A stretch of 64,000 nt of DNA from Ancylostoma caninum (Eukaryota > Nematoda > Chromadorea > Rhabditida > Ancylostomatidae), in NCBI GenBank assembly GCA_037903475.1, contig JBAJFG010000615.1, forward strand, positions 1,574,501 to 1,638,500. Direction: 5' to 3'. This document shows, one piece after another, positions 7,701-63,939 of this stretch (positions within the stretch are counted from its first letter, which is position 1; every line of letters starts with the position of its first letter). The notes below the pieces were generated by a model, which did not search any database, was not told the DNA's origin, and saw only the letters and a list, made by a program, of their open reading frames with translations. Both the position numbers and the translations under genes were made by a program.

Positions 7701-7744
7701 GCCCTACTTCAAATTTCTGCGACTTTTGCTGAACATTATTAGAA

Positions 7745-8195
7745 CTCTACAGTTCTTCCAGCGCTCTCTTATGCTGCGGAGACGTGGGCGGACAATGCGG
7801 CCACGTCGAAGGCGCTACGTACCACACACAAAGCTGGCTGGGCTTCGCAGCTCCTGTGTCGAAATGTCTCGCCTTCGTGATCCAGCGGAATACGTATCGA
7901 AGGCTAAACATAGAATGGGCTGGTCATATAATGAGAAGAGAAGACGGTAGATGGACAAAAAGAACTTTGGAATGGATCCCAAGAGGAACGAAACGACCTC
8001 GAGGGAGACCACCAACGAGATGGGACGATGTGTTCAAAATACGGATTTATCAGCTGAACGCTCAACTGGAAAGGAATCAGAACTCTCGCCATTCTCGTCT
8101 GCGATGTTCCTGGATGACGGTGGCGCGAGAAGTAATCGAATGGAAGCGATGCTGGGGCCCGCACGACACGTGACGACGGGCCATCTAAGTAACTA
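7745..8195 (+). pseudogene. RTE-type non-LTR retrotransposon, 3' end of reverse transcriptase ORF (broken)
   Basis: Two overlapping + frames together encode the typical C-terminal part of an RTE-like reverse transcriptase: SYAAETWADNAATSKALRTT, then EWAGHIMRREDGRWTKR, then PRGTKRPRGRPPTRWDD and finally a VAREVIEWKRCW tail. Frames change between the first two blocks and internal sequence is missing, so it is a dead fragment. It lies between peptidase copies 1 and 2. The motifs are characteristic of the abundant RTE elements of nematodes. Confidence 0.75.
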
Positions 8196-9583: not shown

Positions 9584-26462
<16,879 letters not shown>

Positions 26463-44386: not shown

Positions 44387-45419
44387 CTTTTAAAATGTTT
44401 TCAATGTGGACTTTTAAAATGTTTCCAATGTATAAATGCCAGCAATCATTACGTGTTACAAATGTTCATCATAATTTTGAATAAATTCCATGCAAAGAAT
44501 AAATTAGATGTTTTTCCTCTCTCTATTGCGTTCTAGCTGCGTATCCCACTATAGATCGAAATTAACGAAGTTCGTAGGAATTGAACATTGTCTATGCAGA
44601 CGACTTTCGGATTTCTTACATAATTGCATGTGTTTGTTGAGAAGAACACGACTCCTGCTGAGTGGTTCAAGATAAGTAAAACCTTGGATGACAAATCGAA
44701 ACCCTTTAGAAACTCAGGAAAAGAACGATATAAATGCAGAACACCTAAGGATTCATCTGAGGTTCGCTTAAAAGTTCAAATCAAAAATCCATCAGATTTC
44801 CGAAGTCATGCTTCCGACTGCTGAACAGCCTTCGAGCACGCTCCCGTAAAAAAATTCCCATAGAGACCAAGAATTTTCTATAGAATTTATTAGAGAATTC
44901 TACATGCCAGAGAATGCCGAAGCAAGTCAGTTTCTACAATTTCTTCCAGAAATTAGTGGAATTTGGAAAATCCGAGGCCTCTATAGGAGATTTCTGCAAT
45001 ACCTCTCAAAATTTCTGTACTGTGAAACCTCGGCGATGCTATATTTGTGGTGACTCCAAAAGCGCAACGACTAAGGATTTCAAGTATAGGTCTTCGTGTG
45101 ATCTGTGTGTGTCTCATGTGTCAAGACAAGAATTGATGTTATCAATTCTCGAGGAACAGTTAATTTTATCAATACCGCTACATTGTCTGGATCTTTCGTC
45201 ATCGTTATGCTCCATCGAAGTCCAAACGAGAACTGGTCCCCATCACTCCTGCAGGCATTTTTAGCAAATATTGCATGCATTCTGTATGCGAACACTGGTT
45301 TTCTAGAGAATTTTAGCTTCCTTTGGAACTCTCCTTGGAACCAAGGATTGTTGCCTACAGTCGGGTCCGGCAGCCACTGTAAATGGGCTGAGTTGGGGGG
45401 GGGGGGGTCACTCCTGTGA

Positions 45420-45530
45420 AGCCTAAGCTAAGCCTTAGGCTTAGGCTTAAACCCATGCTTAAGCATAGGATTAGGTTTAGGCTTAGCTTAGGCTTAGGCT
45501 TAGGCTTAAGCTAGTGCTTTTACTTAGGCT
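45420..45530. repeat. TTAGGC telomere-like tract
   Basis: Degenerate TTAGGC/GCCTAA repeats in both orientations (CCTTAGGCTTAGGCTTA, GCTTAGGCTTAGGCTTAGGC) meet as an imperfect palindrome inside the left arm of the element. TTAGGC is the nematode telomere repeat. Shorter GCCTAAGCCTAAGCC runs recur in the right arms of all three elements of this family. Confidence 0.6.
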
Positions 45531-46214
45531 TACAAGGTGAAGCCTATGACCTTTTGTAGGGTGCCCCCCCCCACTCCCTTTTCACCCAAATGGGCGCGGG
45601 CGGGCGCCGGCCGCCGCCACCCTCCGGCGCCCCGGTATTAATGAGCTATAAATCATTTTTAGTCCATAGCAGACAGAGTGCAGTGGATATGTTAAGGCTA
45701 TAAAGCAGGGGATCATTTTCACAACTTTCACGTTTTTTCATTTTTCTGATTTTCATGGGGGAAGATTTCTGAATACACAATAAGCAAAACCAACTCTTCC
45801 ATTTTCTGCTATAGTACACTGCTTCGCGAATACAAAAATGGCCGTTATTCTTCTATAGATGGACACACTACTTCAGTTATCTCATCTGAATAATAAAGCT
45901 CATCCAATCCTCAGAAATAATTGAAATCCGTATAAATTGTTCCATATCCATTGCGAAGTAGTTCTACCGCTGTCATTTATCTTTCGTGGAGCAGTTCTTT
46001 ACGGCGGAGTTACTCTCTCCCGGTTTCCCTCAACTTTGAAAAAGTGGTTTTTCACTATATCTTACACTATTACTATTACTTACACTTACACTTATCGTAG
46101 TTTATCTTCGAAATTTATGCAAAACGTTGCCGGATGCCTTCCTGGACTGCCCGAAGGAGATCACGGGGGACGTTCCAAGCAGTGAACCCCAAACACTGCG
46201 ATACTTAACTCTGG

Positions 46215-46286
46215 ATCTCCAACGGAGTGGAACCAGCGATAGGGACAGATTGCAATCTGCCACTCAAACCACTGAGCCATCCGGGC
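46215..46286 (-). repeat. tRNA-like unit 1 in element copy A
   Basis: On the minus strand GCCCGGATGGCTCAGTGG gives box A (TGGCTCAGTGG), a CAGATTGCAATCTG anticodon-like hairpin follows, and GGTTCCACTCC stands at the box B position. The acceptor stem does not pair. This is a pol III promoter-like tRNA relic, not a working tRNA gene. Confidence 0.5.
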
Positions 46287-46360
46287 TACTTTTTATGTTG
46301 GAGTTTGTTAGATAACTGCAGCAGTCATAGGCAGCATACTATATGTATTTGCAAAACGGC

Positions 46361-46432
46361 GCACAGGGCAGGATTCGATCCCCTGACCACCACAACGTCG
46401 ATCATTCGCTCAACCCACTGAGCCATGCGCGC
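46361..46432 (-). repeat. tRNA-like unit 2 in element copy A
   Basis: On the minus strand GCGCGCATGGCTCAGTGGG gives box A and GGATCGAATCC gives box B with one mismatch to consensus. The outer acceptor bases pair partly (GCGCG with TGTGC by G-C and G-U). It is about 75 bases from unit 1, same orientation. Confidence 0.5.
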
Positions 46433-47044
46433 ACGCGATGCAACATACAAATGGTGTCCACTATTACTTACACTTACACTTATCGTAGTTTATCTTCGAA
46501 ATTTAGGTGAAAAGGAGTTGGGTGGGGCCACTCCTGTGAAGCCTAGGCCTAAGCCTTAAACCCATTCTTAAGCATAGGGTTAGGCTTATCTACCCTGTTT
46601 ACTATGGACTAAAATTGTATTTTTCTTCGCTTTCTCCCAAGCTCGAGTGATTTATAGCTCATTAATACCGGGGCGCCGGAGGGTGGCAGCGGCCGGCGCC
46701 TGCCGGCGCACATTTGCAGTGGCTGCCGGACCGGACTGTGGGTGTGTTTTTTTTCGGCTTCAATAGAATTTATCGGAGCAATTTCCATGAAAAGAACAGC
46801 AGTTCAATCAATTGAGCAATTTCTTTGGAATTGCTTTGTTTCGTTAGCATTGCATGCACTTCACGAGAACCCTGCCAGTCTCAAACAGATCAAACTCCAT
46901 TTAAAACTAGTTTGTTCCACAAAAACGAGACTTAGTCGCGATGGGTTGCGGTGTTTTTCGCAGATTTTTATTGTTTTTTTAAAATTTTTTTTTGATTTCG
47001 TAGCACTCTGCGCCACCGCACCGCTTACTCCACAATCCTCGATA

Positions 47045-47135
47045 GCAAACCATCAGGTTTTCTTGATAGTTGGTTAGTTTTCTTGTTGGTTAATATGATA
47101 TATGATCAAAAACTATCAAGAAAACCCTGATTTGC
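47045..47135. repeat. Short hairpin / foldback upstream of copy 4
   Basis: GCAAACCATCAGGTTTTCTT...GATAGTT and the complementary AACTATCAAGAAAACCCTGATTTGC form a stem of about 25 base pairs with few mismatches around a loop of about 40 bases. It could be a tiny MITE or a hairpin RNA precursor; the sequence alone does not decide. Confidence 0.5.
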
Positions 47136-47412
47136 CACTGCAGCGGCGATCCTGGCGCGAGCGGCGCGGGGGTGGTGCGTGCGTTCCATGTTTTATAATC
47201 GTGCCAACGTACCCAGAAAGTAACCCGAATTCCTGGAATCTCCTCGGCCACCACGAAAAGCGTGGACTGAATATCGTCATGAAACCGGTGTAGCTAATAA
47301 AGCACGCGTAATCCTAATGATTAAACAAGACATTCTTTGTTGTTCGACCGCTAGATGATGTTCATCCAAGTTTGCATGAAACTTAGTGCAGAATGAGATT
47401 AAATAAATGAAT

Positions 47413-47631
47413 GGGTAAAATGGAGTTGGGGGGGGGCCACTTGGTATAAGTCGATAATATGACCTGTCCTGCACGTTCAGACTCGTTAGCTGACACGTCC
47501 AGAACGCTCTGACTTGTTAGCTCTCTTAATGTACAGTAGTTACCTGTAATGCAAACAAGTCAGAACGTGCAGGACAGGTCATATCATCAACTTATACCAA
47601 GTGCCCCCCCCCCCCCAACTCCATTTTACCC
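47413..47631. mobile_element. Mutator-type MITE with perfect 9-bp target duplication, just upstream of copy 4
   Basis: The terminal repeats GGGTAAAATGGAGTTGGGGG and complement continue inward through CCACTTGGTATAAGT and ATGACCTGTCCTGCACGTTC, giving arms of about 80 bases. TAAATGAAT is present at 47404-47412 and 47632-47640. Its right end is 53 bases from the start codon of copy 4, so it supplies much of the proximal promoter or 5' untranslated region. Confidence 0.85.
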
Positions 47632-47684
47632 TAAATGAATTTCTGGTGTGGTTCATTCTATCGTTACGTTGTTGTCCAGTGTGG

Positions 47685-50600
47685 ATGTTCACTCGTTCCT
47701 TCATCGCCCACCTGCTTCTCTCACCAGTCTTATCATGCGACTATAAAGTATGCTCAAATGTGTCCATGCGTTATGAGCAAGACTGACACCTTTCAGCCTC
47801 CTTCTGACGAGAACGTAACCATTGCAATAACGGAGTATCCAAGTGATGTTCAACGTGCAAAGCGTGATACACCCTATTGGGATTGGATACGAATAGAGGT
47901 TGAGTACGATGAGACATTCACATCGTAAGTAGTGTTATCTTGTTTTGAACCATTGCTTAATCGTAAGCCTAAGCTCTAGTCGAGGTGAAGAGAAGTCGAG
48001 CTAGAGAAACGCAAGTGGTACTAAACGTTTTCACACATTTCAAGAGGATTTGGGCAAGAAAAATCGATTCCGTCATCACAAGATCCCATACATTCCCTCT
48101 TGTACCTTCCTCCCCCACCCCATTTTCCACTTCATTTCGTCTCAGAACCCTCCTCTTACTTCTTTTTGGCTATCTCGTTTGGTTGCCTCGAAGAGTGGCC
48201 AAAATTCACACCACCCCCACACCTTGCTGTACCAAATATGCACTGGTTTTTACCAGGCCCGTTTGCTACTGATTTTCATGGAAATTTCGCGACCTTATGT
48301 GTGGTTTTTGATCACAAATGCATTTTTCATTCTTTGGTTCTATTCGATCTCTGGAGGCGATAATAATCCATCAAGTACCCTGGCATTTCATGAACATAGA
48401 TATAAAATATCGCAAAACTTCCTAACCAAACCTCAATATTCATAGCAAAATGCCTAATGCAGCTTTTCACAGATTGACCAAAGAGAAGCAAGGGATGCTC
48501 AGAGAGCTTATCACTAACGCTCGAGACTACTTCGAAAGTACAATACAAGTGCAACGACTCACCTCGATTATCTTACCTTCGTAAGTGCTCCAACATCCGT
48601 TTGTAATGGAATTTGTCTACCGCGGAATCATCTTTATTCGAACTAGGAACAACCAAATGTTCATCAGAGAAAAATGTTAGCCTTATAATAAAGGAACAGG
48701 TATCTCGTAAGAAGACAGGGCAGAATCCTGAAGATGAAGAAGAGTTTACGATTCTACATAAGTTTGTGAAAAAAAATCAATTTCAAAGGGGAAGATACAA
48801 ACCTTTAAACAAAAAAAGGGTTTTTTGTATACGAACTGAGATAATCGAAATTGTTCCGGCTTAAATGCTGTTTCCCTTATTACTTCTTTAACCTGTACTT
48901 CCTGCCCAAATATATGCGTATATGGACAGTTGTGGGTGAATTCTTACCTCAACCTGACAACTCGACCCTTTTATTCAACCCCAGCAAAATCGGAGCATTT
49001 CAAAATTGTTTTCTCTTGAGTCCTAATGAACCTCATATTCGTGCTCCTCACAGTCGAGACCCTAGGGTTATGTTGGAATCTCGCAGTTGAAATTTCTCAT
49101 GGGTGCTGTCTTCAAAGAAAAGCCCTGCCTAGGCGCTTATAAGAGCTCAACATGAAAATATATTATTCGCTGGGTTCTTGATGCCGTACCCTTATGGTTA
49201 TTGATTGATCTCCATCACTGGCAATTCTTGAAGGTAAAATATATGTAAATTACTCAGGATCATTTTAGTTTTCGTTTTGTGCACTGTCCTCATGCGAAAA
49301 CTAATCAGTGTAAAAAAATAGATAGTCCTGTATTGATAATGATATAGATATAATCTATTACATGTCCATATGTGACCAGTTAATAATGTTTGAAATAAGT
49401 GAATGAGGTGTAAATAATATGCAAATAGTAATGTCATTTCAAGACAGTGATTACGATATGAGATAACTAGAATTCTAAATTCTAAATGAAGTATAGTTTA
49501 TTTCATTCAACTTGGGAACATACAGCGCTGATACCATTCCGAGACATCTCCTTATACTTGAAGCTCCACACACAGTAGACATGACCGATCAGTACTTAGA
49601 AGGCCAACGCTAACGGCAACGAGAGCTATTCACGACAGCGTTGGAAAGATAGGGATCCCGATCTACTAAACTCATTTACGCTTTTGTTTGCATTCAGTAT
49701 AGAGTGCGCGAGCGAAGCGAGAATCTATGAAATGGGGTTTGGTTTCTGACGTACATCATTGGAATCAGCATGACGAGGACTTCTAGACCGGGCTGATTTC
49801 TATAAACCACGGAACGAAATGAAACGCTGCCTTCAAGTGGTGAATTGTCCTAGCTCATTGGAATAGACTGCAGGCGTAAGTGCTGCTAGTGGTAAATTGG
49901 CCTGCGCATTAGACAAATGGTTTTGTATAGTGATAAAACTTCTACTGAGAGTAAGTACACAAATGAAGAAATGAGCGCGACTTCAAAGTCATAGACATTA
50001 ATTTGAGCCACTAATTAACGTAGAACGATAAACCTTCAGATCGTGTAAATTCGGAGCCCCCCAATACGTCAAAGGCGTCACTCACTGTGAATTCGACTGT
50101 GCGAAACGATGCGGTACTGCGACGGCACCGCCCCATGCCGACTACTTCTCGGTATAATCTTCATCTTTGCTCCTTTAGGCTAAAATTTCGCTCGAAGTAG
50201 TACATTTTTCAGCCGTGCATCTGCACACAAGGGGATTGCCTTACAGAAGACGCAAACTGGGGAGGTTTGCTTCAGCACAAGGATAGGGTCTCCATCATCT
50301 GAGTGACTCGGTTTCAGGAAAGTTGCACAATGCTGACTTTGTCCTCTTTGTTTCACTGGATGGAGATGAGTGTGGGAACTCAACGCTCGCTTTCGCATCA
50401 CATTGCTCACTGGATCGTCTCACAAAAAGGTCTGCACACTGTTGTTCTATCGAAAACACTTATTTTCCAGAGTGATTTCAAGTGAAAGTAGTGGAGCAGT
50501 TATTTCGATATTCCTATCACTGGGAAATTGGACGTTTATGATGTAGCAGTTGAAAATCTATGCAAGTAGAACAAACCGTGTTAAGAAAAACCTGGATCAC

Positions 50601-53600
50601 CCCTAGAAAGACCTCTTGCCTGACGGCAATTTAGACTAGACTCGTGCCTTTCTCGTGCGTGCGACTTTATGATGAATGAAGGGACGACACGTACTTCTAA
50701 AGTAGCCTTCATGCAAATTATATCGGCGTCGCGGCTATAAGCCGAAGTCGAGCGGAGTCTTCTTTCATAGCTCCCGAGATGTTCGTGAGAAAGAAAAACT
50801 GCCGCAGCTGAATGCGTGAGACGCACGATGCATCAATGTAATGTGGACTGTCCTATATGTAGTACGTACTTCCTTCAGTTATCAGTCGAAACAGCTACAG
50901 GGCAATTTATACCGGAAGAGTGCGACTGACGCGCGTGCGTCCTTATGATGAAGGATAGGACCCAGTCGCATCGTAGTCGCAGCCCAGACTCGTTTACGCT
51001 ATTTTCGAAGTGATTCTGATGAAGACCAGTCAAAGTGGGAATGCAAATTCTAAATGGAGAGAACGCGCGGCCGCCGTGACGGCGTAAACGCGCGCGCTTG
51101 GGCTGCATTGCGATGCGACTGGGCCCTATTCTCACATAGACGCACGCGCGTCAGTCGCACACATGCAGTATAAAAGGCTCTACTAACACCCATTAGCACC
51201 CAATAGCTAGGCAGTAGAATAAATTTACAATCCACGAGGTTCAATATCTAGTAAACATGTAACAAAAGCATGAATTACTTGAGCAATTCGTGCTCATGCT
51301 CATGAATACATAGCAGCAGATAGTCCTGTAATTTCCTTTTGTGTTGCTTCCCGATATTCAAACTACTACCCGTTCGGATGAATTAGCTTTTCCTCAACAG
51401 CGAGGATGCGCGAAAACATCGACGCAATGACTAATTGCTCCGACATAACCGAGTTACCCAGTGTAGAGAATAGAGGTGATAAAAGGAAAAAAGTTATGCC
51501 AGAAAGAATCCAAAATTACTAATAACTATCAGTTCATAAACTGTGAGGGGAGTGACAAATCGTCGTTCCAGTGGCAGGGTAAGTGGGAACCTTCTCATTT
51601 ACGCGTGAAGTTGGTCGCTACGGTTCATGATAGCTCCGCGGATATCACTTTCACCCTCAAATTCAGTACAACCGTAGCAAGACTAAAAGCTTCCTTCAAC
51701 TAGAGTGTAGGGAACCTTTGTTGCGACGCCTCTCGACAAAAGCAACAAGGGATAAACCTTTAAAAAGCTAATTTTAGCAAGGAGTAAACCCATATTTCAA
51801 CAACTTCACCACCGCTGAAAGTCTCGCTGTTCAGACCGGTCGCCGGCTATGTGAACATTTGTCCACACTTGTTTAATAAAATCAAAGTTAACGAGCTGTC
51901 GCAGTGGGAGGCCACAATCAAACATGAGCTTATACACGCTTTCGTATTCTCAACAACTCTCTACGCAAGATACAAACCAGCAAAAGGCCGCGCAAGAAGG
52001 TGAGCATTCACATTCACAACATTGATTACATTCTTATAAATTCTCTGTTTCCAAATTCCAGGGTAGGAAGCGTAGTCCTAGTGCCTGGAGTAATTGAAAA
52101 AGTCAAACGCCCGAACTGGGAGACTGCATATGGCGAAGTTAGTTCTATACGTCACAAATTTTGGGAACTTTTTTTTTCTTAGTCTCTCTCAACATCTCAG
52201 GGGAAAGTGGAGACTTATCTGTGCGCTCGGAACTTTTACGATTTACGACTTAGGGCAGTTTTGAAAAATTTACGATCTACGATTTACGAAAATCAAATTT
52301 CTTGCTTCGCACATCCCTGCTCTGGACCTACTTCCCATATACATACAGTCGGGTCTGGAAGCCACTGCAAATGGGCGCCGACCCTCCGGCGCCCCGGTAT
52401 TAATGAGCTCTAAATTACTCGAGCTTGGGAGAAAGCGAAGAAAAATACAATTTTAGTCCATAGCAGACAGAGTGCAGTGGATATGTTAAGGCTATAAAAC
52501 AGGGGACCATTTTCACAACTTTCACGTTTTTTTTTTTCATTTTTGTGATTTTCATGGGGAAAGATTTCTGAACACACAATAAGCGAATCCAACTCTTCCA
52601 TTTTCTGCCATAATACACTGCTTCGCGAATACAAAAATGGCCGTTATTCTTCTATAGATGGACACAGTACTTCAGTTATCCCATCTGAATAATAAAGCTC
52701 ATCCAATTTGTGATCCTCAGAAATAATAAAAATCCGTATAAATTGTTCCATATCCATTGCGAAGTAGTTCTACCGCTGTCATTTATCTCTCGTGGAGTAG
52801 CCCTTTACGACGGAGTTACTCGGCTTCCCTCAACTTTGAAAAAGTGGTTTTTCACTATTACTTGCACTATTACTATTACTAACACTTACACTCATCGTAG
52901 TTTATCTTCGAAAGAGTTTTCCACTATTACTTACACTTACACTTATCGTAGTTTATCTTCGAAATTTATGCAAAACGTTGCCGGATGCCTTCCTGGACTA
53001 CCCGAAGGAGATCACGGGGGACGTTCCAAGCAGTGAACCCCAAACACTGCGATACTTAACTCTGGATCTCCAACGGAGTGGAACCAGCGATAGGGACAGA
53101 TTGCAATCTGCCACTCAAACCACTGAGCCATCCGGGCTACTTTTTATGTTGGAGTTTGTTAGATAACTGCAGCAGTCGCAGTCGGCATACTATATGTATT
53201 TGCAAAACGGGGGCACAGGTCAGGATTCGATCCCCTGACCGCCACAACGTCGATCATTCGCTCAACCCACTGAGCTATGCGCGCACGCGATGCGACATAC
53301 AAATAGTGTCCAATCTTACTTACACTTACACTTGTCGTAGTTTATCTTAGAAATTTAGGTGAAAAGGGAGTTGGGTGGGGCCACTCCTGTGAAGCCTAAG
53401 CCTAAGCCTTAAACCCATTCTTAAGCATAGGGTTAGGCTTATCTACCCTGTCTACTATGGACTAAAATTGTATTTTTCTTCGCTTTCTCCCAAGCTCGAG
53501 TGATTTATAGCTCATTAATAGCGGGGCGCCGGAGGGTGGCGGCGGCCGGCGCCCGCCGGCGCCCATTTGCAGTGGCTGCCGGACCGGACTGTAAATAGTC

Positions 53601-56600
53601 ACATGCGCAGCGACCACACGCATCTAATAAAAGATGTTTTTTTAGGAAGTGAAGGCAGCTGAACAAAAATTTCATAAACTGTATAATTTAGTGAGGTCTT
53701 CCCTCCTTTTTAAGGCTTTTAAGGTTGTGAACTTACCGCGGCGGTCTTCGGTTATATCATGTGGGATGTCCCATTAATCGTGCACTACGCAAAATTCCGG
53801 AGATTTTTGGGCAAACTTTGATTGGCCTTTGCGCATGCCAACCATTTCCAAATTTTTGGAGGAATCTTCTAAATTTCAAGTTAATTCCAGGTAATCTCGG
53901 TAGTCTTCTCTCGGTAGCCACCTTTTTTTGCTATAGCATATACCACAGTTTCTCCCAGGCGGAAACTGCCGATGTAAAATCCGTAGAAGTAGTCATAGTT
54001 GTTATCTCCACAATGCATAACTGTTTTTAGAATTGTTGTTTTGAGCACAACAGTGTATAATGTGGCTTAGGTAGCTCACGAAGTTGTCATGATGGTCACG
54101 CCAAAAGTAAGGGAGGAAGCGCGGAATTTCTTCAATTGTCCTGACCTGGAAGGAGCAGAGATTGAAAGTCAAGGAGGTTTGGGGACGGCAGGCTCTCACT
54201 GGGAAAAACGAGTATTTGAGGTGAGTGTGTGTGGATCCGTTCCAATATCTATAGGTTTAGGTTCATGATTATTGTTCACCTTAAAACTCCTCATGGATGC
54301 GCCTTGCTAATGCTAGTTTTGATATGAATTTTGACATAGACCATTGAAATTCTGGTAACAAGAAACAAGGTACTTGTACTGCACGCATCCGATATCCATA
54401 GGCTAAACTCCAAGGGGCCGGGCCCGCTCGCCGCGCCGCATCATCTATGGCTGTCTTGACGATCTGCGGAACCAGTCTAGCGCTTGTTGGAGGAAACAGA
54501 AACAGGGACAGAAAATTGCCACTGAATCATGTTCTCTCCTTTAGCCCGGGAATATTTTCAAGGACTTTTTACTGTTCGACTGAGCGTGTTGATGCATTGT
54601 AAATCCCAAAACGCGCAACTAGGTGGACCACGTCTCCCCCAGAGCGGCATTCTTGGTTTTTATGGGAAAGTCTTGGTTTTTGAAGAAAAAAAACCATTCA
54701 TTTATTGGTCAAAAGCCATTTTTAAGCGGTTTTAACGGTTTCTTTTTTTCACAAGATTAAAGACGGTTTTACTAAACGGAGGATACTGTTTCGCGGGATA
54801 ATTGGTTGCTTACGTAGTATGCACCTACACTCGCCATGCGAAACAAGTCTGGTGGACCATCTTTGATGTTCTGCTCATTCTTTAAACAAAAGTTAGTTTA
54901 GTAGGTGACCGATAAAACTTACCATCAAGGTTTGCTGGGCAAGTGTTTCAAGGACTGCAGTTCTGATTGTCTACGCATCCGCATATTCCATCGGTATCAC
55001 TGTTCTCGTTTTCGATCGATCATGTGGCGGATGCGGTGAGGGGGTTCGGACAAACAGAGAACGCCTGATACTCATATTCCAGAAATTAATCCAATCATCT
55101 GCATTCCAGAATGAAGCGATGACTGGCGTTACCACACAAGTATACGCGCTCAGTCGGTTAACACTAGCTCTTTTTGAAGACTCTGGCTGGTATAAAGTGA
55201 ATTACGAGTGAGTGCTTCATAGTTATGAATCTGCTCTGGAAACTGCCTCAATATCCTGAGACTCCAGCAAAGCCGAGGAAATGAAATGGGGACAAGGACT
55301 AGGATGCAAGTTCGCTAAACAAAGCTGCTTAACATGGATGAAAGCAAACATCAAAGATCCTTATCCATACTGCAACGTGCTTGGAGATACAAGGTATTTC
55401 TTGTTAGCAAGAAACCACTGAAAACCTTGCTATCTACTGCACAATTTCTTTCAGATGTACCGACAACCGACGCGCAAAAGTTCGCTGCAACCTGGTCTCA
55501 GGCTCAAAGCAACTGCCTTCCACATATGACTACAATATTAAGGACTTGTTCTGGGACAAGAAGGGACGCAGCATACGCGGTTATGGTCACGTCTCGGTCG
55601 CCGACTACTGTCCTTACTACCGAGTAGGTAACACAGAATTCGTAGAACTTTTGATAGCTCACTTTTGAAGATAGCGGCATGATTATGTGAAGTTTGTAAA
55701 TCAAAGTCAAACACTAATAGTGTGCGCTACCTTGCGCTGCCTCCAAGTGTACACCATTTAATTTCAAAAACTGATTTTTCCCCTTATCTCTCTCTCCCCC
55801 CTTGTTCAGAAACAAACCTAAACGAGGCCTGCATAGACACAGTGAGCATTGATGAAGCTGACCGAATTGTGGGCTTAAAGGTGTGCCCCAGCTAAGGATC
55901 GATTCTGAAGTCTCGACATCAGAAGAATCTGCAGGCGACTCTGATCGAATTGGTGTACACATTTCCTAGCAGAAGCGCAGGTAAAACCCTTACTGAACCC
56001 CCTATTCTTGGAGAGTTCCAACTCCATGCGCTGCGACAACTACCACAACTAGTTGGACTCATTTAGGTGCCACCAATCGATATCACCCTGCCAGCGCACA
56101 TTACTACTCCTCGTTGCAGGCATCGCAGAGCGAGAACCTCGAACTCTCCAAAAATTAGGGATTCAAAAAGAGGTTTTCCGGCGCTTTTACGAATAAATTT
56201 CGATACCATTTTGGTCGGCATCGCCTGTAGATTCTCCAGATGCCACGACTTCAAAATCTAACCTTAGGTGGGACACTGTCGTTGAGCGCGTATCGCAGCA
56301 CGACCGCACCGCACGTTCGACTCAATTTCTTGCATTGCCATAATGACGTAGAACTACCAAATACGATGAAAAACACAAAGCATAGCTACGATCAACCATT
56401 ACGTACTGCAAGATTCCAGCGCGCGATGCGGTCGCGCTCCCGTTCACGTTTTAATCTCGTTGTTTACTATGTCTAATCAAAAACATTTGAGATTTACGGC
56501 GACGTTTCAAAAGAGGACACGGATACAAGATGTACATTCGCAGGAAACATGAATTACAACAATTATTCGCTGGAGGTAATGCATTCTAAGTGAAAATAAT

Positions 56601-58041
56601 TTTGGCTGGTGCAAAAGGCCTTCATATCATCTGTGGGATGTTTACAGATTTTCTCACCATCAGCTCGTTGTTTTGAGCTTGATGGTGACGGAGGCATCGC
56701 TATCAGGAATGAACACGGTACAAACACTTGGTTGCACTCCGTTGGATGCTTCGAGGTAAACATTTACTCCTCGGGCCAGATCAGAAAATGTGACCAGTAG
56801 TGGAGAGATGATCGTTTGCTACTATTTAGTACCGGTGTTCATCAGAACTCCGGAGCGCTTAAGGCGGAGAACTTTACCATATTTTCTGTTCAGACTGTTT
56901 GCGAGAAAAACTTACTCTACATCAAAACGCAGAGGTCAAAATTCTACCCATGTCATCGAAAAGGGCAGCTGATTCATGTAGAAAAGGTATGAGTTTGTTT
57001 CACCGGAATCTCATTGTGGAATTGGAATTGAAATCGAAATGTGGTATCAAAAACCTAGCAATGACACCCGTGAATCTATCAGCTGAGTTATGCTCTATTA
57101 GCTCCCAGAGGGCCCCTGATCTGACTTTGTCTGCAATTACACTATACATAGGCGTTGACTCTTCGAAACACATTCTCTTTTTTCTCCTTCTTATAATCGC
57201 CCATACCATGAACATCAGAAAGATAAACTAACTAATAATATGAGTGGGCGCTTCAACACTTGGAATTTGGGTACATTCATTCGTCCATTCATTCATTCAT
57301 TCATGCATTCGTAAATTCATTCATTCATTCATTCTCCCATTCATTCATTCATTCATTCATTCATTCATTCATTCATTCATTCATTCATTCATTCATTCAT
57401 TCATCCATTCATTATTCATTCCAGTACGAACAATTCTGACTGGACCCTTTAGGCGGTGTCATAAAGGGGTAGTGAGCAGGGATGAGCGGAATTATTGCAT
57501 GAGGCCGGAAGTCGGAAGTCGGAGGTTGGGAGAAGTTCGAAATCTGGCGAAATTTGGAGCGATGAATACAGCATGTCTAGATTGCCGTGGCCCAACGACT
57601 GCCAATCGTCCAGAAATCTAGAAGTCAGAAGCTCGCATGAGGCAAGAATTCAGGGACTTCCGACTTCCGGAAACCGGAATTCCGCTCATCCCTGGTAGTG
57701 AGCCCTGCGCTATTCACAAAAAAGATGTTCAGCTAAAAATATCAGTAATCAGTAATAATTACAACAGTCGAAATATGCTGGAGCCAAAATCCATTATCGA
57801 ATTTCCCGTCGATATGTGTCTCTGATTAGATGAAATCCATTATTTTCAGAGGGTGCATGGAGTCGGGACGATTAAAACCCGCATTGTCTGTCCTTCCTGT
57901 GCTGAACTTTGTGGAAAGTTGTTTTGCGCACCAGAAAGACATATTCATGAGCGCATTGGAGATTCGGCTAGAAGAAGCCCTTTCAACTTCTTATATCCTT
58001 TATTTACCTTCGTCATTACTATTGTTTTTCATATACTTTGA
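47685..58041 (+). CDS. Leishmanolysin-like (M8) metallopeptidase, copy 4
   Basis: Exons: 47685-47747, 47797-47924, 48473-48580, 50040-50151, 50213-50264, 50318-50429, 51835-51999, 52062-52137, 54071-54220, 55110-55207, 55268-55393, 55455-55623, 56492-56575, 56648-56755, 56894-56986, 57850-58041. They join to 611 codons without stop. The start was chosen because [18 protein letters not shown] is a signal peptide in an exon of exactly the same length (63 bases) and phase as exon 1 of copies 2 and 3. Zinc ligands H222 and H226 lie in [11 protein letters not shown]315 in SHWEKR, and Met326 in NEAMTG. The tail is strongly hydrophobic ([14 protein letters not shown]). The exon 13 acceptor (CATTTGAG) is poor. 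AATAAA at 58163-58168 may be the polyadenylation signal. Intron 8 contains long-TIR element copy B and intron 15 a hAT-type MITE. It is closest to copy 1. Confidence 0.88.
50901..51175. mobile_element. GCGTGCG palindromic MITE, intron 6 of copy 4
   Basis: The left end GGCAATTTATACCGGAAGAG then TGCGACTGACGCGCGTGCGT is complementary to the right end ACGCACGCGCGTCAGTCGCA then ...CAGTATAAAA. The interior carries GATGAAGACCAGTCAA. The orientation is opposite to the intron 1 copies. Confidence 0.7.
53066..53137 (-). repeat. tRNA-like unit 1 in element copy B
   Basis: Same structure as the unit at 46215-46286: minus-strand box A TGGCTCAGTGG, a central hairpin and GGTTCCACTCC. Confidence 0.5.
53213..53284 (-). 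repeat. tRNA-like unit 2 in element copy B
   Basis: Minus-strand TAGCTCAGTGG is a perfect box A here, followed by GGATCGAATCC as box B. Confidence 0.55.
54640..54860. repeat. Dispersed repeat shared with 8440-8870
   Basis: A TTGGGAAAGTCTTGG-like start, TTGGTCAAAAGCCATTTTTA and a T-rich ACGGTTTCTTTTTTTC segment correspond to the repeat upstream of copy 2. It lies in intron 9 of copy 4. Confidence 0.35.
57271..57420. repeat. (CATT)n microsatellite, intron 15 of copy 4
   Basis: About 150 bases of ATTC/CATT tetranucleotide repeats with a few interruptions. The Ser-Phe-Ile-His frame across it is a repeat artefact. Confidence 0.96.
57477..57694. mobile_element. hAT-type MITE with perfect 8-bp target duplication, intron 15 of copy 4
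   Basis: Terminal repeats CAGGGATGAGCGGAATT are exactly inverted at the two ends. GTAGTGAG flanks the element at 57469-57476 and 57695-57702. The CAGGGRTG terminus and the 8-base duplication are hAT signatures. The 218-base interior has no coding capacity. Confidence 0.85.
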
Positions 58042-59924
58042 ATTGTACTTAATTAAGAGGACTATAACTGCACAGATTTAACTGGAATTATATGAATGCA
58101 AACAATACTCTAGTCTGTACATTCCAAATATTCATCGCTTTCATGTTCAACCAACTACAAATAATAAACTTATGTATCTTTTGTGGTCAGGATGACGAAG
58201 TTGCAAAATTTACACCGAGAATAAAAACACGAGATCAACTAAAAGGTTGGACAACCGCTTCTTCTCAGAAGCGAGCAATCTCTGTTGATAAGGTAGACAG
58301 CAATGAGCCTTGGAATTCTAGGATTTCTCTTAAGAGCACATGGCAAAGAAGAGAGTGCGAATCAGCTGATAGACGTTCACTCAGGACAACTAGGGAACCT
58401 GTTTTGCATGAAATTGAAAGATGCAGATCTCATAATCAAGTTATACTGGCTATTGCAAGACAAGATATTTTAAAATCAATAGTTCTACAGCAACAAAGGG
58501 CAAATCCATGCAAAACTCATGCATATCTTTGCGAAATTCATTCGTCTCTAAATCCTGTACAAAACCTCGCGAAAAACACATGGATTTTCTCAATTCCATG
58601 CGAAACCCATGCATACCGGTGAACACACGGTTTCTATGTAGGTTTCCAGAGTATGTACTATTATAAAAAAGTGCACGCCTCGAGTGTCGATCAATAAAGG
58701 AACGCTGTGAAGCGACGACAGTGAGGAAAGCACATACAAACTGCTCTTTCCCACTATTATCTTCTCATCCTTACCATTTCTGATTACTACTGAACCACTG
58801 CTAAGCTTCACTTCTATATTTAATTGAGAATACACTCCTTATACCGAGCAGCCGAAGCGAAGCGTTCACGGATAATCTTCTTTTCTTTTTTTTTTCTTTC
58901 TCCACTTCTTGATTGTGCTGATTCCTATGTAATTGTGTCTTTTGTTCAAAAATTAGCAAAGATAGTTTCGACACATGTGAAAAGCCCGGAAATCTTTGAC
59001 TTCCGAAGTAACTGATCAGTTCACATGTTTGAATTGCACCTTTGATGTTGAAAATTAGCCTATCCGAAACCTTGTATTATAATTGAGAATGAATTAAAAT
59101 GGGATGCCATGCAGCTTATATGTAGGGCAATTTATACTGGATGCGTGCATTTGACGGAACGCATGCGCGTCTAATGATGATCGTGATGGTGTGAAGACAG
59201 ATTCGTTACCTTCATGGTGAGGCAGGTGTCTGCTGTTACATCATCTTTGCTAGACACCACTGTTCATGATCGTTTCGGAAAATTCAGCGGTGGAATGTGC
59301 ATAAATGGAGATTTCTAGTAACTTACTCATTGTGAGAAGTTAAAGGCACCTAATCTGAGAGCATGAAGAGATCGATTAGTAAGGATAATAAGAAGAACAC
59401 AGTCAACGTTCCTAGGATTTTTGCACTAGCCGGTATCGGGGCTTGAACTAGACCCTCCTCGGGTTGTAGACCCTTTCATCAGTAGTTCCCAAGGAAGCTA
59501 CAAAAAGACCTTAGTACTAAGTCAATAAGATGAGTCCGAGAACGTTAGAGGAATGTGTTGCAACAGGCAAAGAAATAGTTGCTCATTGAAAAAAAAAACT
59601 TCCCAAATCCATCTCCTACAAACAAGTCAGATCACAAAATTATGAGCCCAGAATAGTAGGTGATAAGGCACGTGTGAGCCTGATGATTCCTTTTCCTCTC
59701 TGGCATTAATTTGTTATTATACAGCAGGACCACCCGGTAGGGTTACAATAGGACATTAATTAGGGATATTTCTATCATTTTGTTCTGTTTTTGTTTTCAA
59801 GTTTCTCTTAACCACAAATGGTCGCGACATCGGAATCACGAATGTCTGACGCACGCACACGTTCCTTATATATTCTCGTGTTCATGTAACATAATTATTT
59901 ATAGAGGATGTTGCAGCATTTCAA
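58042..59924. other. Spacer between copy 4 and the ester hydrolase gene
   Basis: No gene recognised. A polyadenylation signal lies at 58163-58168. One end of a GCGTGCG MITE is present at about 59125-59190 (GGGCAATTTATACTGGATGC) without its partner end. Around 59434-59510 the minus strand has weak box A- and box B-like sequence, too poor to call. Confidence 0.5.
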
Positions 59925-62900
59925 ATGTCATGGAGAACGTTCGTTATCAACACGCTCAAGCCATCCAACAACGAACTTCGTTCAGTTATCGATTCTATAC
60001 TTTGGAGGAATTTCAAAAATGTTCAAGTAGAGGTTGCCTCAACTCCAGGTTTGTTCAATTATGTTTGTATTCATCCAGGCATCATGAAAAGTCACAGGTA
60101 TCCATGAGACCACTTTAGGCCCATGGCATACTTCACAGCGACACCGTCGCGGTGAAGAAAGTGAATGGAAATGGTGAGAACAAAATGTTACAAGTTCTCA
60201 TATCTTATCACTCAGTTTGTGTGGAATAGCGTGCTGGCACAAGAGCTAGTGTGTGAAAACTTTTGATGATGAACGGTCGCAGGGACGGCGTCGCTGTGTA
60301 GTATGCCATGGGTCTTCTCAGACACTCGTGAGGTTCGACCCCAGCACGTAAAGTTCTAGTTCCGTCCGCTCCCATGGAAGAGGCGACGTGCTGTTGGTGC
60401 CGTACGTACTGTGTTCCACCCCCGCCTACTGACTTGAACTGCCGGACGTGCTCAGTTCCACCTCCGCGTATCAGTTCCTATGCATTCACTTTTAGGGTTC
60501 AACCCCAGCACAAAACGTTTTCACAATGACCGTGCTAGCTAAATATGCTGCTGATACTGATTCAAACGTATATGTATAGGCCGACTGTCCGGTGTGGAAG
60601 TCTCAGCGGAGACCAGACTGAGGTCTCCACATGTGTAACTGGGGTCGAGTCCCTATTCGTGCTGATGTCGAACTCCACGAATGCCTGAGTTCTGCTTTGA
60701 TACGCGCGTTTGCGAAACGCTATTGCAAGCTGATGAGATGAAGTCCTCAGGAAGCCAGCAGTCATGCAAGTCCTAGCACTGGCTTCCAAAATAATTGGAT
60801 TACGCGCCCAAGAGCATTACGCAACATAATGAAGTTGAACATTAAATGGCTAAGGAAGTCTCAGAACCAGCTTTTGAGCCAACTTTGAGGTACAGGTAAA
60901 GTGTACGATCCATCCTGCTCGATGATTAGCACGTTCATAAGTCGTTCTCTCGAAGTTTCCGAAAGCTTGTATGGGTCTTAGGTCTTTTATGAGTCGCAAA
61001 CTTGCAAAAAAAAAGAGTATAAATTGTCCGATAACGAGACCTTACCCTGCTATAAGAAACTGTAATGATAGGTAACCTGAACAGTGTTCTTTATCAGGAC
61101 TTGAAGTTTCACGAGATTTTCAAAGGGGAAGGCAAGAAAGAGAAGATTAAGTTGCATGTCATATTCTAGACCTCACTGCGGCTCCATTCCGAATGACATC
61201 GAACGGCTTTGGCAGGAACCTTGTGATAGCTGAAGTCGGCGGGATGGGAAATTTATACCCCGAACTTCACAAGGAAAAGCAATATGATATCAAGGTAGAC
61301 AAAGTACTACTTTATGCCGATAAATGAATATAAAAATTCAACCATTCCAGGAAATTTGTGAGAAATGTGGCGCCCCCAATGCTTTTGTGTTCGGACCAGG
61401 AGCCTGTCCTTCTAGAGTTGTTGGTGCTGGTGAATTAGTTGCTGATGCGAACTTGTCGGAGAATAAGGTCTATTTCGGCGAATACATCCAATTCCTTCGT
61501 ATTTTTTTATTTCTCTCGGTATTTCATACTAAATTCTCAGATGACAAGTTCTCAGATACTTAGATGAAGTGTGTCTAGTGTCTATTTACTATTTATTACC
61601 AGTCTGGATATTGTGATTCCACTGACGCATCAAAAGCAAATAATAATGTTAACTACAAGGTATTTTAGGTGACGTCGAAGGTGACAACCTTGGTAAAGGA
61701 CCATTTCCTAGAGTACAAGACGAAGATAATAAATTCTACAAAATTTAGTCTGATGGGTAATCTTGTTGTTTCGGGACAGCCAGGCCCGTCGGAAGTTGGT
61801 GAGCTTCCCTTTGACTTCAAATTTACATATGTTTAGCTTTTATTTACGTCTTATGCATGGAATAGGAAGAATCAAAGTCCAATCTTGATCCAAGGTACAG
61901 TCGGGTCCGGCAGCCACTGCAAATGGGCGCCGGCGAGCGGCGCCCCGGTATTAATGAGCTATAAATCACTCGAGCTTGGGAGAAAGCGAAGAAAAATATA
62001 ATTTTAAAGTCCATGGTAGACAGAGTGCAGTGGATATGTTAAGGCTATAAAGCAGGGGACCATTTTCACAACTTTCACGTTTTTTCATTTTTGTGATTTT
62101 CATGAGGAAAGATTTCTGAATACACAATAAGCGAAGCCAACTCTTCCATTTTCTGCTATAGTACACTGCTTCGCGAATACAAAAATGGCCGTTATTCTTC
62201 TATAGATGGACACAGTACTTCAGTTATCCCATCTGAATAATAAAGCTCATCCAATTTGGGATCCTCAGAAATAATTGAAATCCGTATAAATTGTTCCATA
62301 TCCATTACGAAGTAGTTCTACCGCTCTCATTTATCTTTCGTGGAGTAGTCCTTTACGGCGGAGTTACTCTCTCCCGGTTTCCCTCAACTTTGAAAAAGTG
62401 GTTTTTCACTATTACTCACACTATTACTAATACTTACACTTACACTTATCGTAGTTTATCTTCGAAATTTATGCAAAACGTTGCCGGATGCCTTCCTGGA
62501 CTACCCTAAGGAGATCACGGGGGACGTTCCAAGCAGTGAACCCCAAACACTGCGATACTTAACTCTGGATCTCCAACGGAGTGGAACCAGCGATAGGGAC
62601 AGATTGCAATCTGCCACTCAAACCACTGAGCCATCCGGGCTACTTTTTATGTTGGAGTTTGTTAGATAACTGCAGCAGTCGTAGGCAGCATACTATATGT
62701 ATTTGCAAAACGGGGGCACAGGGCAGGATTCGATCCCCTGACCACCACAACGTCGATCATTCGCTCAACCCACTGAGCTATGCGCGCACGCGATGCAACA
62801 TACAAATAGTGTCCAATCTTACTTACACTTACACTTATCGTAGTTTATCTTAGAAATTTAGGTGAAAGGGAGTTGGGTGGGGCCACTCCTGTGAAGCCTA

Positions 62901-63939
62901 AGCCTAAGCCTTAAACCCATTCTTAAGCATAGGGTTAGGCTTATCTACCCTGTCTACTATGGACTAAATTGTATTTTTCTTCGCTTTCTCCCAAGCTCGA
63001 GTGATTTATAGCTCATTAATACCGGGGCGCCGGAGGGTGGCGGCGGCCGGCGCCCGCCGGCGCCCATTTGCAGTGGCTGCCGGGCCGGACTGTAGTCCTA
63101 GGCATACTGAAGAGTCGATATCTCAGAAAAACCTGCCAAAAAATTATCTATCAAAAAAAAAACTCTTATTTTATCAACTAAACTGTTACAAATCAACATA
63201 CAGTCTCTCTTTCGATCGATACTTATTAAAAACCTGCTACATGTAATTTTCAGTACATCTCAAATGTTCTGAGCGTACTGGAGAAGACAGCCTGCCGGGA
63301 TGCATCCGGAAAGGCATGGCTGAGCACTACGGACAATGGTGAGGGTTCAAGAATAATTATATTTTCACTTCCATTGCTGTGGTCCAAAATTTTCCCTCCA
63401 AAGTCCTTGTATTAGTGGAAGCTATAGCAGTAAGATCTATTAAATTAATATGTTCCAAAATTTGTAAATCGCTCTTGTACAGCTGCGTCTCCTTGGCTGG
63501 CATATTTCTACTCCTCCGAGGGAAAGCCGATGTTCACATAATTCCCGACTATCCAGCGAAATCGTTTAGTTCCATGGAGGAGGCAAGGCCAAATCTCGTC
63601 CTCTTAATTCTTTTTTTTGGCGATTTATCACAGTTTCAGGTAGAAAAGTGGTTCCAAATATTCAACGTAAGCGCTCCGCTAGTTTGTGCGTCTGTGCTAC
63701 ATTCATACGATCCAGGTTATAAATTACGAGTACAGCACACTCACTGCTATTCAGACCATGATGATGCAGGTTAGTGCAGCTACATTTGATGAAGAGACGT
63801 ACATATCCCTTCCTTAGAAAATATTTGTCGTACATTTCAAATTTCAGGACATTTCTACAACGACACGACGCCAGAAACTGCCGAATATGAAGGCTGGTTC
63901 ACGGCAGCCGAAAAAATCTATAGGATAGATGAAATCTAG
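59925..63939 (+). CDS. C11orf54: C11orf54-like ester hydrolase (DUF1907), zinc site intact, one splice unresolved
   Basis: Homologue of human C11orf54, a zinc-dependent esterase-fold protein. Exons: 59925-60048, 61170-61294, 61351-61467, possibly 61603-61659, 61669-61798, 63254-63338, 63483-63582, 63640-63769, 63848-63939. Recognisable blocks are STPDLT across junction 1, IAEVGGMGNLYPEL, NAFVFGPGACP, VSGQPG, HLKCSERTG, HIIPDYPAKSFSS, SAPLVC and the zinc motif HTHCYSDHDDAGH, with H279, H281 and H291 at the spacing of the human ligands. Length is 300-319 residues depending on the fourth exon (human protein about 315). The start ATG lies nine bases after a TTGCAG that could accept a spliced leader. 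The intron after SFSSMEE begins with GC (GAG/GCAAGG). At 61660-61668 only nine bases (GTATTTTAG) separate two open segments and contain an in-frame stop, so the fourth exon is either skipped or joined by another acceptor. The intron before 63254 contains long-TIR element copy C. Confidence 0.85.
60120..60312. mobile_element. CCCATGGCATAC-family MITE, intron 1 of the ester hydrolase gene
   Basis: The left end CCCATGGCATACTTCACAGC and the right end GTGTAGTATGCCATGGG are inverted with one mismatch over about 28 bases. The interior matches 31469-31664. No clear target duplication was found. Confidence 0.7.
62569..62640 (-). repeat. tRNA-like unit 1 in element copy C
   Basis: Same layout as 46215-46286; minus-strand TGGCTCAGTGG and GGTTCCACTCC are both retained. 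Confidence 0.5.
62716..62787 (-). repeat. tRNA-like unit 2 in element copy C
   Basis: Minus-strand TAGCTCAGTGG (perfect box A) and GGATCGAATCC (box B with one mismatch). Confidence 0.55.

Follow-up and report, generated by a model that had tools for sequence, protein, structure and literature searches.

Mobile elements of class II, which are cut and pasted, and those of class I, which are copied through RNA and often driven by RNA polymerase III (pol III), are usually treated separately. A stretch of 64,000 nucleotides of Ancylostoma caninum (contig JBAJFG010000615.1, positions 1,574,501 to 1,638,500), here called the window, raises the question of whether one element can combine features of both. 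An original prediction from the sequence had described three copies of a Tc1/mariner-like miniature inverted-repeat element (MITE) carrying paired tRNA-like pol III units, and had proposed either a SINE captured by a DNA transposon or a DNA element that makes its own small RNA. With a probability of roughly 0.6, sequence comparisons favor the reading that a nonautonomous Tc1/mariner-like element captured, and spreads, a SINE-like or satellite-like module of pol III units.

Element copies in the window and in the genome

Copy 1 (45358..46738) opens with CAGT at 45358 and closes with ACTG at 46738; copy 2 occupies 52346..53591 and copy 3 61898..63092, and the units of all three lie on the minus strand. 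TA flanks five of the six ends, namely both ends of copies 2 and 3 and the left end of copy 1, the right end of which has TG. Counting gaps, the arms of copies 2 and 3 are 81-82 % identical in alignments of about 150 columns, which contain ungapped stretches of 93 bp (95 %) in copy 2 and 67 bp (99 %) in copy 3. In copy 1, the right arm spans 46592..46738, while the left arm is interrupted by a 207-bp TTAGGC-rich hairpin insertion (45389..45595, read from the sequence) with AAATGGGC on each side; the left interior between arm and module extends over 45656..46071. The observation of a single TA-flanked, CAGT-ended family with inverted arms and paired box units holds, with TG at the one end of copy 1.

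Compared over 700 bp, the flanks of the three copies show no match to one another, so that these are separate insertions. Among the window's repeated blocks, no paralogue spans the insertion point of any of the three. The left flank of copy 1 resembles 27174-27473, the match ending 23 bp before the insertion point. Copy 2 sits between blocks that start at 51830 and 54030, that is, 2,200 bp apart, and the counterpart blocks in the other three repeats start 345, 425, and 428 bp apart; this arrangement is consistent with insertion of copy 2 after the blocks had been duplicated.

No reading frame in the window copies exceeds 115 amino acids. Elements measured at 13 tip-selected loci were 1,166-1,669 bp long and the strict MITE size class lies below about 800 bp; the element is noncoding and works like a MITE, but in a larger size class. 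A search of 348 Mb of genome with the tip pattern (up to two mismatches, right TA included) gave 727 + 725 = 1,452 matches (control, 0 + 0), and we infer from half this number that an element of about 1.2 kb is present in several hundred copies. A 21-mer of unit A, again with up to two mismatches, was matched 640 + 596 times (control, 0), and exact 40-mers from the body of unit A, from unit B, and from the left interior were found 976, 446, and 408 times, respectively.

Twenty tip-selected loci of the 80 listed were read, all on contig C2; they represent 20 of its 22 perfect-tip matches, those left out being at 685054 (within L021) and at 2758041. Both units were present in all 20 loci, and their orientation was the same in 19, the exception being the inverted units of L041. 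The left tip was absent (within five mismatches) from seven loci and was preceded by TA in each of the 13 that had it. CAGT-type termini with terminal inverted repeats (TIRs) are a feature of the family, with some copies truncated at one end, and the left TA agrees with Tc1/mariner target sites, the right TA being part of the search pattern.

The genome contains 149 listed DDE_3 matches. At the eight transposase loci read (L060-L067) the tips of the element were not seen, and no transposase source was found among the transposase loci read. A 374-amino-acid DDE_3 transposase at L059 was considered as the autonomous partner and rejected: it belongs to a separate Tc1 family nested in the element, which at its other 374-amino-acid loci has 206-bp inverted repeats of its own.

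Paired box A/box B units and the repeated module

A strict scan of both strands (box A without mismatches, box B with at most one, spacing 28-45) yielded eight pairs in the 64 kb versus 0.025 expected under a first-order Markov model. Only strict matches were counted because a looser scan would be expected to yield 3.5 pairs per window. Six of the eight pairs lie inside the three copies, two per copy and all on the minus strand, as had been predicted; their box A sequences start at 46279, 46425, 53130, 53277, 62633, and 62780 and have no mismatch, while each box B has one. The spacing between boxes is 34 in unit A and 33 in unit B.

Unit A of copy 1 (46121..46287) runs for about 167 nt from its tRNA-like 5' end at 46287 to a T4 run at 46121-46124, with box A at 46279-46269 and box B at 46234-46224. 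Its position, like that of unit A in copy 2 (52972..53138), was shifted from copy 3 (62475..62641), where boxes, T4 run, and conserved stretch define the unit. The tRNA-like unit B lies at 46358..46436 in copy 1 (box A 46425-46415, box B 46381-46371), at 53211..53288 in copy 2 (boxes and relaxed ARAGORN), and at 62712..62790 in copy 3 (boxes). All 38 element copies of unit A have their first T4 run at +161 to +163, and pol III may transcribe this unit into an RNA of about 165 nt. Of 45 copies of unit B, 39 have T4 at +74 to +76 and six have none.

The term "tRNA-like" finds partial support. ARAGORN at default settings found no tRNA gene, and Rfam at its gathering cut-off had no tRNA match in the window; relaxed to 80 %, ARAGORN called unit B in all three copies amid 35 calls window-wide. 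The Rfam tRNA model was not listed for copy 1 at E values up to 10. Below its cut-off, it matched copies of unit A outside elements: 17.6 bits at L057 (cut-off 29, E 0.45), in a match spanning the D, anticodon, and T arms, and 12.8 bits at L074 (E 9.5). As regards a tRNA-derived SINE head, the boxes are present and the Rfam tRNA score lies under the cut-off. The folding energy is not unusual for either unit A (z -1.1) or unit B (z -0.1).

A satellite of schistosomes combines a tRNA promoter with a hammerhead ribozyme. The nematode module resembles it as a tandem repeat of a few hundred base pairs with a pol III-type promoter and differs in that no ribozyme family was found in the window at the Rfam cut-off. 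The resemblance to RAGATH-11 (RF03148) is weak, with 27.0 bits for copy 1, 27.6 for L057, and 23.3 for L074, all below the cut-off of 79.4.

The units lie in a module of about 388 bp that is at times tandem within the element. In copy 1 a 46-bp repeat R at 46072..46117 recurs identically at 46460..46505, 388 bp from the first, which is the tandem period; copy 2 has an extra R at 52872-52913. The direct repeat said to bound the block is real, but it marks the junction between tandem units and is no insertion scar, and its interpretation as a target-site duplication was rejected on that ground. The elements read hold one to three modules, with tandem modules at L017, L024, and L037 and three of them in L017. 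The order in protein P0008 can, in our reading, be followed as the end of B-R-A-B-R.

Conservation of unit A

Private changes in the tip-selected loci were rarer in unit A (10/3507) than in neighboring regions (134/11364; p 2e-7), and both boxes of unit A were unchanged (0/231 each). This set comprised 17 left interiors, 21 copies of unit A, 19 of the sp1 region, 21 of unit B, and 19 each of right interiors and right arms; each unit of a tandem was counted on its own, element regions covered for less than 85 % were dropped, the inverted copy L041 was kept, and the counts were made without the 21-base unit A motif. A site-permutation test of unit A versus the left interior was marginal (p 0.05) owing to high variation at two sites of the D arm. 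Position and T4 profiles were aligned on the 21-base motif (up to two mismatches), by which conservation at +0..+20 is partly built in. In these profiles, conservation drops just beyond the T4 run at +163, the predicted end of a pol III transcript; within the element copies, variation at +21..+59 (38/1482) equals that of the 23 bases that follow the unit (21/874). Slower evolution of boxes A and B, which the original prediction had put forward as a check, is seen in unit A, but over the whole unit and not just the boxes, and it is not seen in unit B.

A comparison of four loci with free modules (see below) with the element majority gave differences at 8 of 824 sites in unit A (about 1 %), 11 of 253 in sp1 (4 %), 37 of 338 in unit B (11 %), and 32 of 199 in R (16 %), bait excluded and free regions covered for less than 40 % dropped. 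The free-versus-element and T4 counts include the unit A of L078, which is truncated; the position profile omits it. Loci L009-L028, obtained with a query over R, unit A, and the spacer and biased for that reason, were excluded from the final conservation figures. In Ancylostoma ceylanicum, P0009 (E 5e-5) is a homologue of unit A.

It is conceivable, though less likely than not, that unit A is an active small-RNA gene, conserved in strongylid nematodes and transcribed by pol III, which a transposon has multiplied to about a thousand dispersed copies. If it were true, the copies would be kept uniform by selection or by conversion templated by RNA or DNA, the transposon would be the spreading vehicle of a small-RNA gene family, and its success might depend on the unit A RNA or on TFIIIC binding.

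A rather doubtful alternative is that the module is a passive passenger, an inert satellite in the master copy with boxes that are relics and a unit A made uniform by conversion among about 1,000 copies or by polishing. Gene conversion or assembly polishing rather than selection could account for the low private variation. Private mutations in unit A are too rare to be well explained by selection on individual dispersed copies; the tandem, circularly permuted array at one of the free loci is typical of satellites, and the neighboring unit B is not conserved. Against this reading, conversion or polishing offers no reason for the drop in conservation just past the T4 run; the difference between free and element copies is about 1 % in unit A and 4 % and 16 % in its flanks sp1 and R; and a homologue is present in another genome.

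Origin of the module and comparison with known systems

The module was found without inverted repeats in the fetched flanks at four loci, L057, L058, L074, and L078, the first three being three of 20 unit A loci lacking a listed perfect tip. Some of these loci are arrays with a repeat unit of about 390 bp; L058 and L074 each hold a single unit A and lack a TIR in the flanks fetched, and the array of L078 is circularly permuted and begins and ends within unit A. Next to L058 and L078 lies a further repeat, H, which is itself abundant. Junctions of the kind seen in two free loci had 80 matches at 52 loci, counted by junction type, versus 871 of the element type. Of the free-type spacings below 2 kb, 19 of 28 were 380-395 bp, and 15 of the 52 loci fell on contig C8 (0.8 expected), which also has the longest array seen, with up to four junctions in a row. 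As in a satellite, one unit forms head-to-tail arrays, short where seen. No target-site duplication and no A-rich or LINE-like tail was seen by eye in the four free loci, which are tandem or truncated.

The occurrence of the module without inverted repeats fits capture. A module of about 388 bp with two tRNA-headed, pol III-type units would have passed from the free state into the element; a Tc1/mariner transposase supplied in trans would cut and paste the whole element at TA sites and disperse the module with it, and unit A may be conserved through its predicted RNA or through the promoter itself. The proposal of a SINE captured by a DNA transposon agrees with the presence of the units at all 20 tip-selected loci and with the free modules, but the SINE part of it is not established because some free modules are tandem and one of their arrays is circularly permuted.

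The reverse course, in which the element family made the module and the free arrays are element remnants amplified as a satellite, is unlikely. Tandem modules do occur inside elements, and there is a precedent in Tetris of Drosophila virilis, a foldback transposon associated with the TIR-220 satellite (PMC4079207). Against it, free R and B differ by 16 % and 11 % from the element majority, the Rfam tRNA model fits the free unit A of L057 better than the unit A of copy 1, and the A. ceylanicum homologue appears, in our reading, to share the free-type state at one spacer residue, a single site. It is quite improbable that the module in its free form is a genuine dimeric SINE of tRNA type that continues to retrotranspose and for which the element is just one landing site: its tRNA-like heads, A and B boxes, lack of coding capacity, body unrelated to tRNA, and lone copies of unit A at L058 and L074 would suit a SINE, but retroposition hallmarks were not visible by eye at the four free loci, free-type junctions are often tandem and clustered, and L078 has both its ends inside unit A.

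The capture reading has its nearest counterpart in MER6/MER6A, a mammalian Tc1/mariner MITE with an inserted V-SINE (PMC6887750). Both are TA-flanked, TIR-bearing, and noncoding, have spread SINE-derived or SINE-like sequence that includes a highly conserved domain, and number hundreds of copies. The SINE part of MER6 is without a tRNA-related head, whereas the nematode element keeps two box heads and T4 runs; its module is a dimer, tandem in some cases, and conservation of unit A extends over roughly the predicted transcript. Tetris, too, is nonautonomous and bears inverted repeats, and its tandem repeats are also found in arrays beyond it; these repeats lie in the TIRs and the abstract mentions no pol III units (PMC4079207), whereas the nematode repeat is internal and gene-like. 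Helicoverpa HaSE SINEs (PMC3272025) are built similarly, with a conserved central domain behind a tRNA-related head, and differ from the nematode module in that the latter is spread by a TIR element, its free copies are often tandem, and retroposition hallmarks were not seen by eye. No description of the nematode element was found among the best-ranked papers of a literature search that included few subscription titles, and the 5 and 54 pattern matches in the viral_contigs and genome_contigs collections were not upheld by tblastn, leaving no confirmed match in either.

In every tip-sampled copy of this DNA element, tRNA-headed, promoter-bearing units ride along. This makes it possible to test if small-RNA genes can be amplified by a DNA transposon and if sequences that bind TFIIIC aid the persistence of transposons. 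For a group of worms that parasitize animals, the element also provides a repeat marker.

Anatomy of the element and its tandem module

Three copies of a TA-flanked, nonautonomous Tc1/mariner-like element are present at 45358-46738 (c1), 52346-53591 (c2) and 61898-63092 (c3), as claimed in the original prediction. Their ends start with CAGTC, followed by inverted arms of approximately 130-150 bp. The TA dinucleotides that had been assigned to all three copies are found on both sides of c2 and c3 and on the left of c1, but the right flank of c1 is TG. The flanks of c1, c2 and c3 gave no mutual match, so each copy inserted independently, and none arose through the large duplications that fill the window. 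The left arm of c1 carries an inserted TTAGGC-rich hairpin of 207 bp (45389-45595), flanked on either side by AAATGGGC. All three copies have a related TTAGGC-rich stretch within their right interior (46539-46588, 53392-53441 and 62894-62943); repeats of this kind are of the nematode telomere type.

The direct repeat (R) that was said to bound the block containing the two tRNA-like units, A and B, is indeed present, at 46072 and 46460 in c1, 388 bp apart. Elements elsewhere in the genome carry three (L017) or two (L024 and L037) consecutive modules and, in our own comparison with the window, a public reading frame of 153 aa (P0008) spans the end of unit B, R, unit A and unit B and continues into R again. 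Because of the 388-bp spacing, the repeated modules and the layout of P0008, R is the seam of a tandem unit of ~388 bp, and its interpretation as a target-site duplication was rejected.

Elsewhere in the window, several 96-175-bp blocks are each present in four places, ~12-21 kb apart (e.g., at 2018, 18124, 39327 and 51830), together with larger duplications of 90-95 %. A DUF1907 frame at 63343-63774 has seven protein matches; the named ones are from Trichostrongylus, Ostertagia, Haemonchus, Strongylus, Angiostrongylus and Ancylostoma, which identifies the source of the window as a strongylid nematode, and the best match, outside this named set, is 73 % identical. The recurring blocks and this frame look like a tandem gene array. 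On the minus strand, an array of a 59-bp GC-rich repeat (36334-38101; 23 registered starts, ~30 units by span) remains open for 574 aa. Frames at 7733-8173 (+) and 20643-21002 (-) are without a Pfam match; they resemble the C-terminal parts of proteins encoded by nematode non-LTR retrotransposons.

tRNA likeness of the two units

Two minus-strand box A/box B pairs were observed in each of c1, c2 and c3, with a perfect box A, one mismatch in box B and a spacing of 33 or 34 bases, which is approximately that of a standard tRNA gene. A strict scan for box pairs yielded eight, against 0.025 expected per 64 kb, and six of these lie in the elements. The other two, at 15069 and 31875 on the minus strand, have spacings of 44 and 43, and a second copy of either was not found among the loci fetched from the genome; the pair at 15069 resembles a relic of a serine/leucine-type tRNA.

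The box pairs thus bear out the two predicted tRNA-like units per copy, but dedicated searches do so to a lesser extent: in the window, ARAGORN reported no tRNA gene and Rfam gave no match at its gathering cut-off, while the Rfam tRNA model was not among the matches listed for c1 at E values up to 10. The head of unit A in L057, a free module (i.e., one without the terminal inverted repeats (TIRs) of the element), aligns to positions 7-64 of the Rfam tRNA model, all three arms included, with 17.6 bits (cut-off 29; E 0.45), and L074, another free module, scored 12.8 bits (E 9.5). By gene finders, the units are weak tRNAs. In view of these results and of the L057 and L074 matches, they are called tRNA-like and are probably tRNA-derived. 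In a search with 346 bases, the body of unit A (46160-46228, minus strand) also resembled Rfam RAGATH-11, at 27 bits against a cut-off of 79.4 and with E 0.005; it has the GUUUGGGGUUC hairpin and GAACGUCCC downstream in common with that model. This is possibly a chance likeness, since a miRNA family matched the palindromic insertion in c1 with E 0.002.

Element-borne and free modules

Allowing up to two mismatches, the right-tip pattern matched 727 + 725 times genome-wide and the reversed control not at all. The left tip in the window copies is one or a few bases away from this pattern; each element should therefore be counted at both ends, and the number of elements is estimated at ~700 rather than 1,452. 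Units A and B were both present in 20/20 loci picked by tip alone from the 22 perfect-tip matches on one contig (C2), so the objection that genomic copies might mostly lack the units does not hold for this one-contig sample. The module has its usual orientation in 19 of the 20 and is inverted in L041. A left tip within five mismatches was found in 13, always preceded by TA, and these elements measure 1,166-1,669 bp.

Twenty loci match a unit A 21-mer exactly and have no perfect tip among the matches listed. At least one TIR arm was present in 17; in the other three (L057, L058 and L074) no TIR was found in 0.8-1.1 kb of flank per side. L078 is an array of 2.2 units with a period of 390 bp and both ends within unit A, and its flanks (0.8 and 0.5 kb) hold no TIR. 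Genome-wide, R-A junctions of the L057/L078 type number 80, at 52 loci, counted by junction and not by absence of a TIR; of their 28 spacings below 2 kb, 19 are 380-395 bp, and contig C8 has 15 of these loci, where 0.8 would be expected. The element-type junction occurs 871 times. On the basis of these counts, spacings and clustering, there appear to be two populations, clustered short free arrays and dispersed element-borne modules. Free-type loci are also bunched on C620 (7), C58 (5) and C67 (5), a concentration as if chromosome-specific and perhaps sex-linked. A dispersed repeat that is abundant in its own right (1,179 first-look candidates) lies beside two free modules (L078:300-769 and L058:655-811) and, by eye, seems to hold another tRNA-like box B.

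A 75-aa frame of Ancylostoma ceylanicum (P0009) matches unit A and a short part of the upstream spacer (E 4.9e-5, 49 % over 76 % of the query), with a diverged middle and three extra residues at the anticodon-like hairpin. At one spacer residue it has, in our own reading of this single site in a protein frame, the free-type V and not the element-type E, which weakly suggests that the module was free first and in the element second. The observation behind the original prediction was confirmed and its interpretation in part: units in all tip-selected loci and the existence of free modules fit a hybrid with captured units, whereas the direction of capture is one that we infer.

Most likely, the element moves by cut-and-paste through a Tc1/mariner transposase acting in trans, with the module carried along. 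At least 149 DDE_3 matches are among those listed in the genome. L059:3467-5054 is a Tc1-like transposon that lies inside an element copy; it is bounded by 206-bp inverted repeats, and its 374-aa DDE_3 frame is open. Being a separate transposon, it was rejected as the autonomous partner of the element. Its kin occur at 95-99 % in L061-L065, with a broken frame in L065. None of the eight other transposase loci read carried the element's tips.

MER6/MER6A, which spread in mammals, is a MITE of the Tc1/mariner type that has taken up a V-SINE; the SINE part there is without a tRNA head (PMC6887750). Tetris has tandem repeats that occur both in a TIR element and in satellite arrays (PMC4079207). 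The present element joins both themes with promoters retained; a description of it was not found among the papers that the literature searches listed.

Conservation of unit A

The unusual and testable feature of the element is the gene-like conservation of unit A. When four free loci were compared with the element majority, excluding the 21-bp bait, 8/824 sites differed in unit A, 11/253 in the spacer region sp1, 37/338 in unit B and 32/199 in R; unit A is lower than R (p 4e-17), unit B (p 6e-14) and sp1 (p 0.001). Unit A of L078, which was retrieved by a query without unit A, has 4/362 differences. Counted from the start of unit A, of which +0..+20 is partly search motif, four complete free copies showed 2/156 differences at +21..+59 and 3/428 at +60..+166, against 22/160 in the 40 bases upstream, 19/92 at +167..+189 and 64/160 at +190..+229. 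The first T4 run of unit A is at +163 in 36/38 element copies, the two exceptions being at +161 and +162, and conservation drops past it. In unit B, a T4 run is located at +74 to +76 from the start of that unit in 39/45 copies and is lacking in six. The internal boxes would direct pol III transcription of unit A and perhaps also of unit B.

The tip-selected loci, obtained without a unit A bait, have 10/3507 private changes in unit A and 134/11364 in the pooled left interior, sp1, unit B and right interior (p 2e-7). Of the proposed box conservation, the part concerning unit A stood (0/231 changes in each box), but the unit B boxes have 3/231 and 6/231 changes; judged by these alignments, unit A is conserved and unit B is not. 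Variable columns among c1-c3 number 2/175 in unit A, 4/79 in unit B and 48/822 in the rest. Exact 40-mers, hand-chosen and liable to hit subfamily differences, occur 976 times for the unit A body, 446 for unit B and 408 for the left interior genome-wide; none of the four free loci had a left interior beside its modules. Against this conservation, unit A and the left interior differed with only p 0.05 in a site-permutation test, since shared variation is high at two sites in the D arm of unit A (TTT/TTA/TTC and GAGT/GAGC): +21..+59 varies at 38/1482 in element copies, at least as much as the 23 downstream bases (21/874). The D-stem pair is preserved at the GAGT/GAGC site, as G-U or G-C.

That unit A has so little private variation is puzzling, since single dispersed copies should drift. 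Copy-to-copy conversion or polishing of repeats in the assembly must be considered, as selection on individual copies is an unlikely cause, but neither of the two easily explains why conservation drops at the predicted transcript end.
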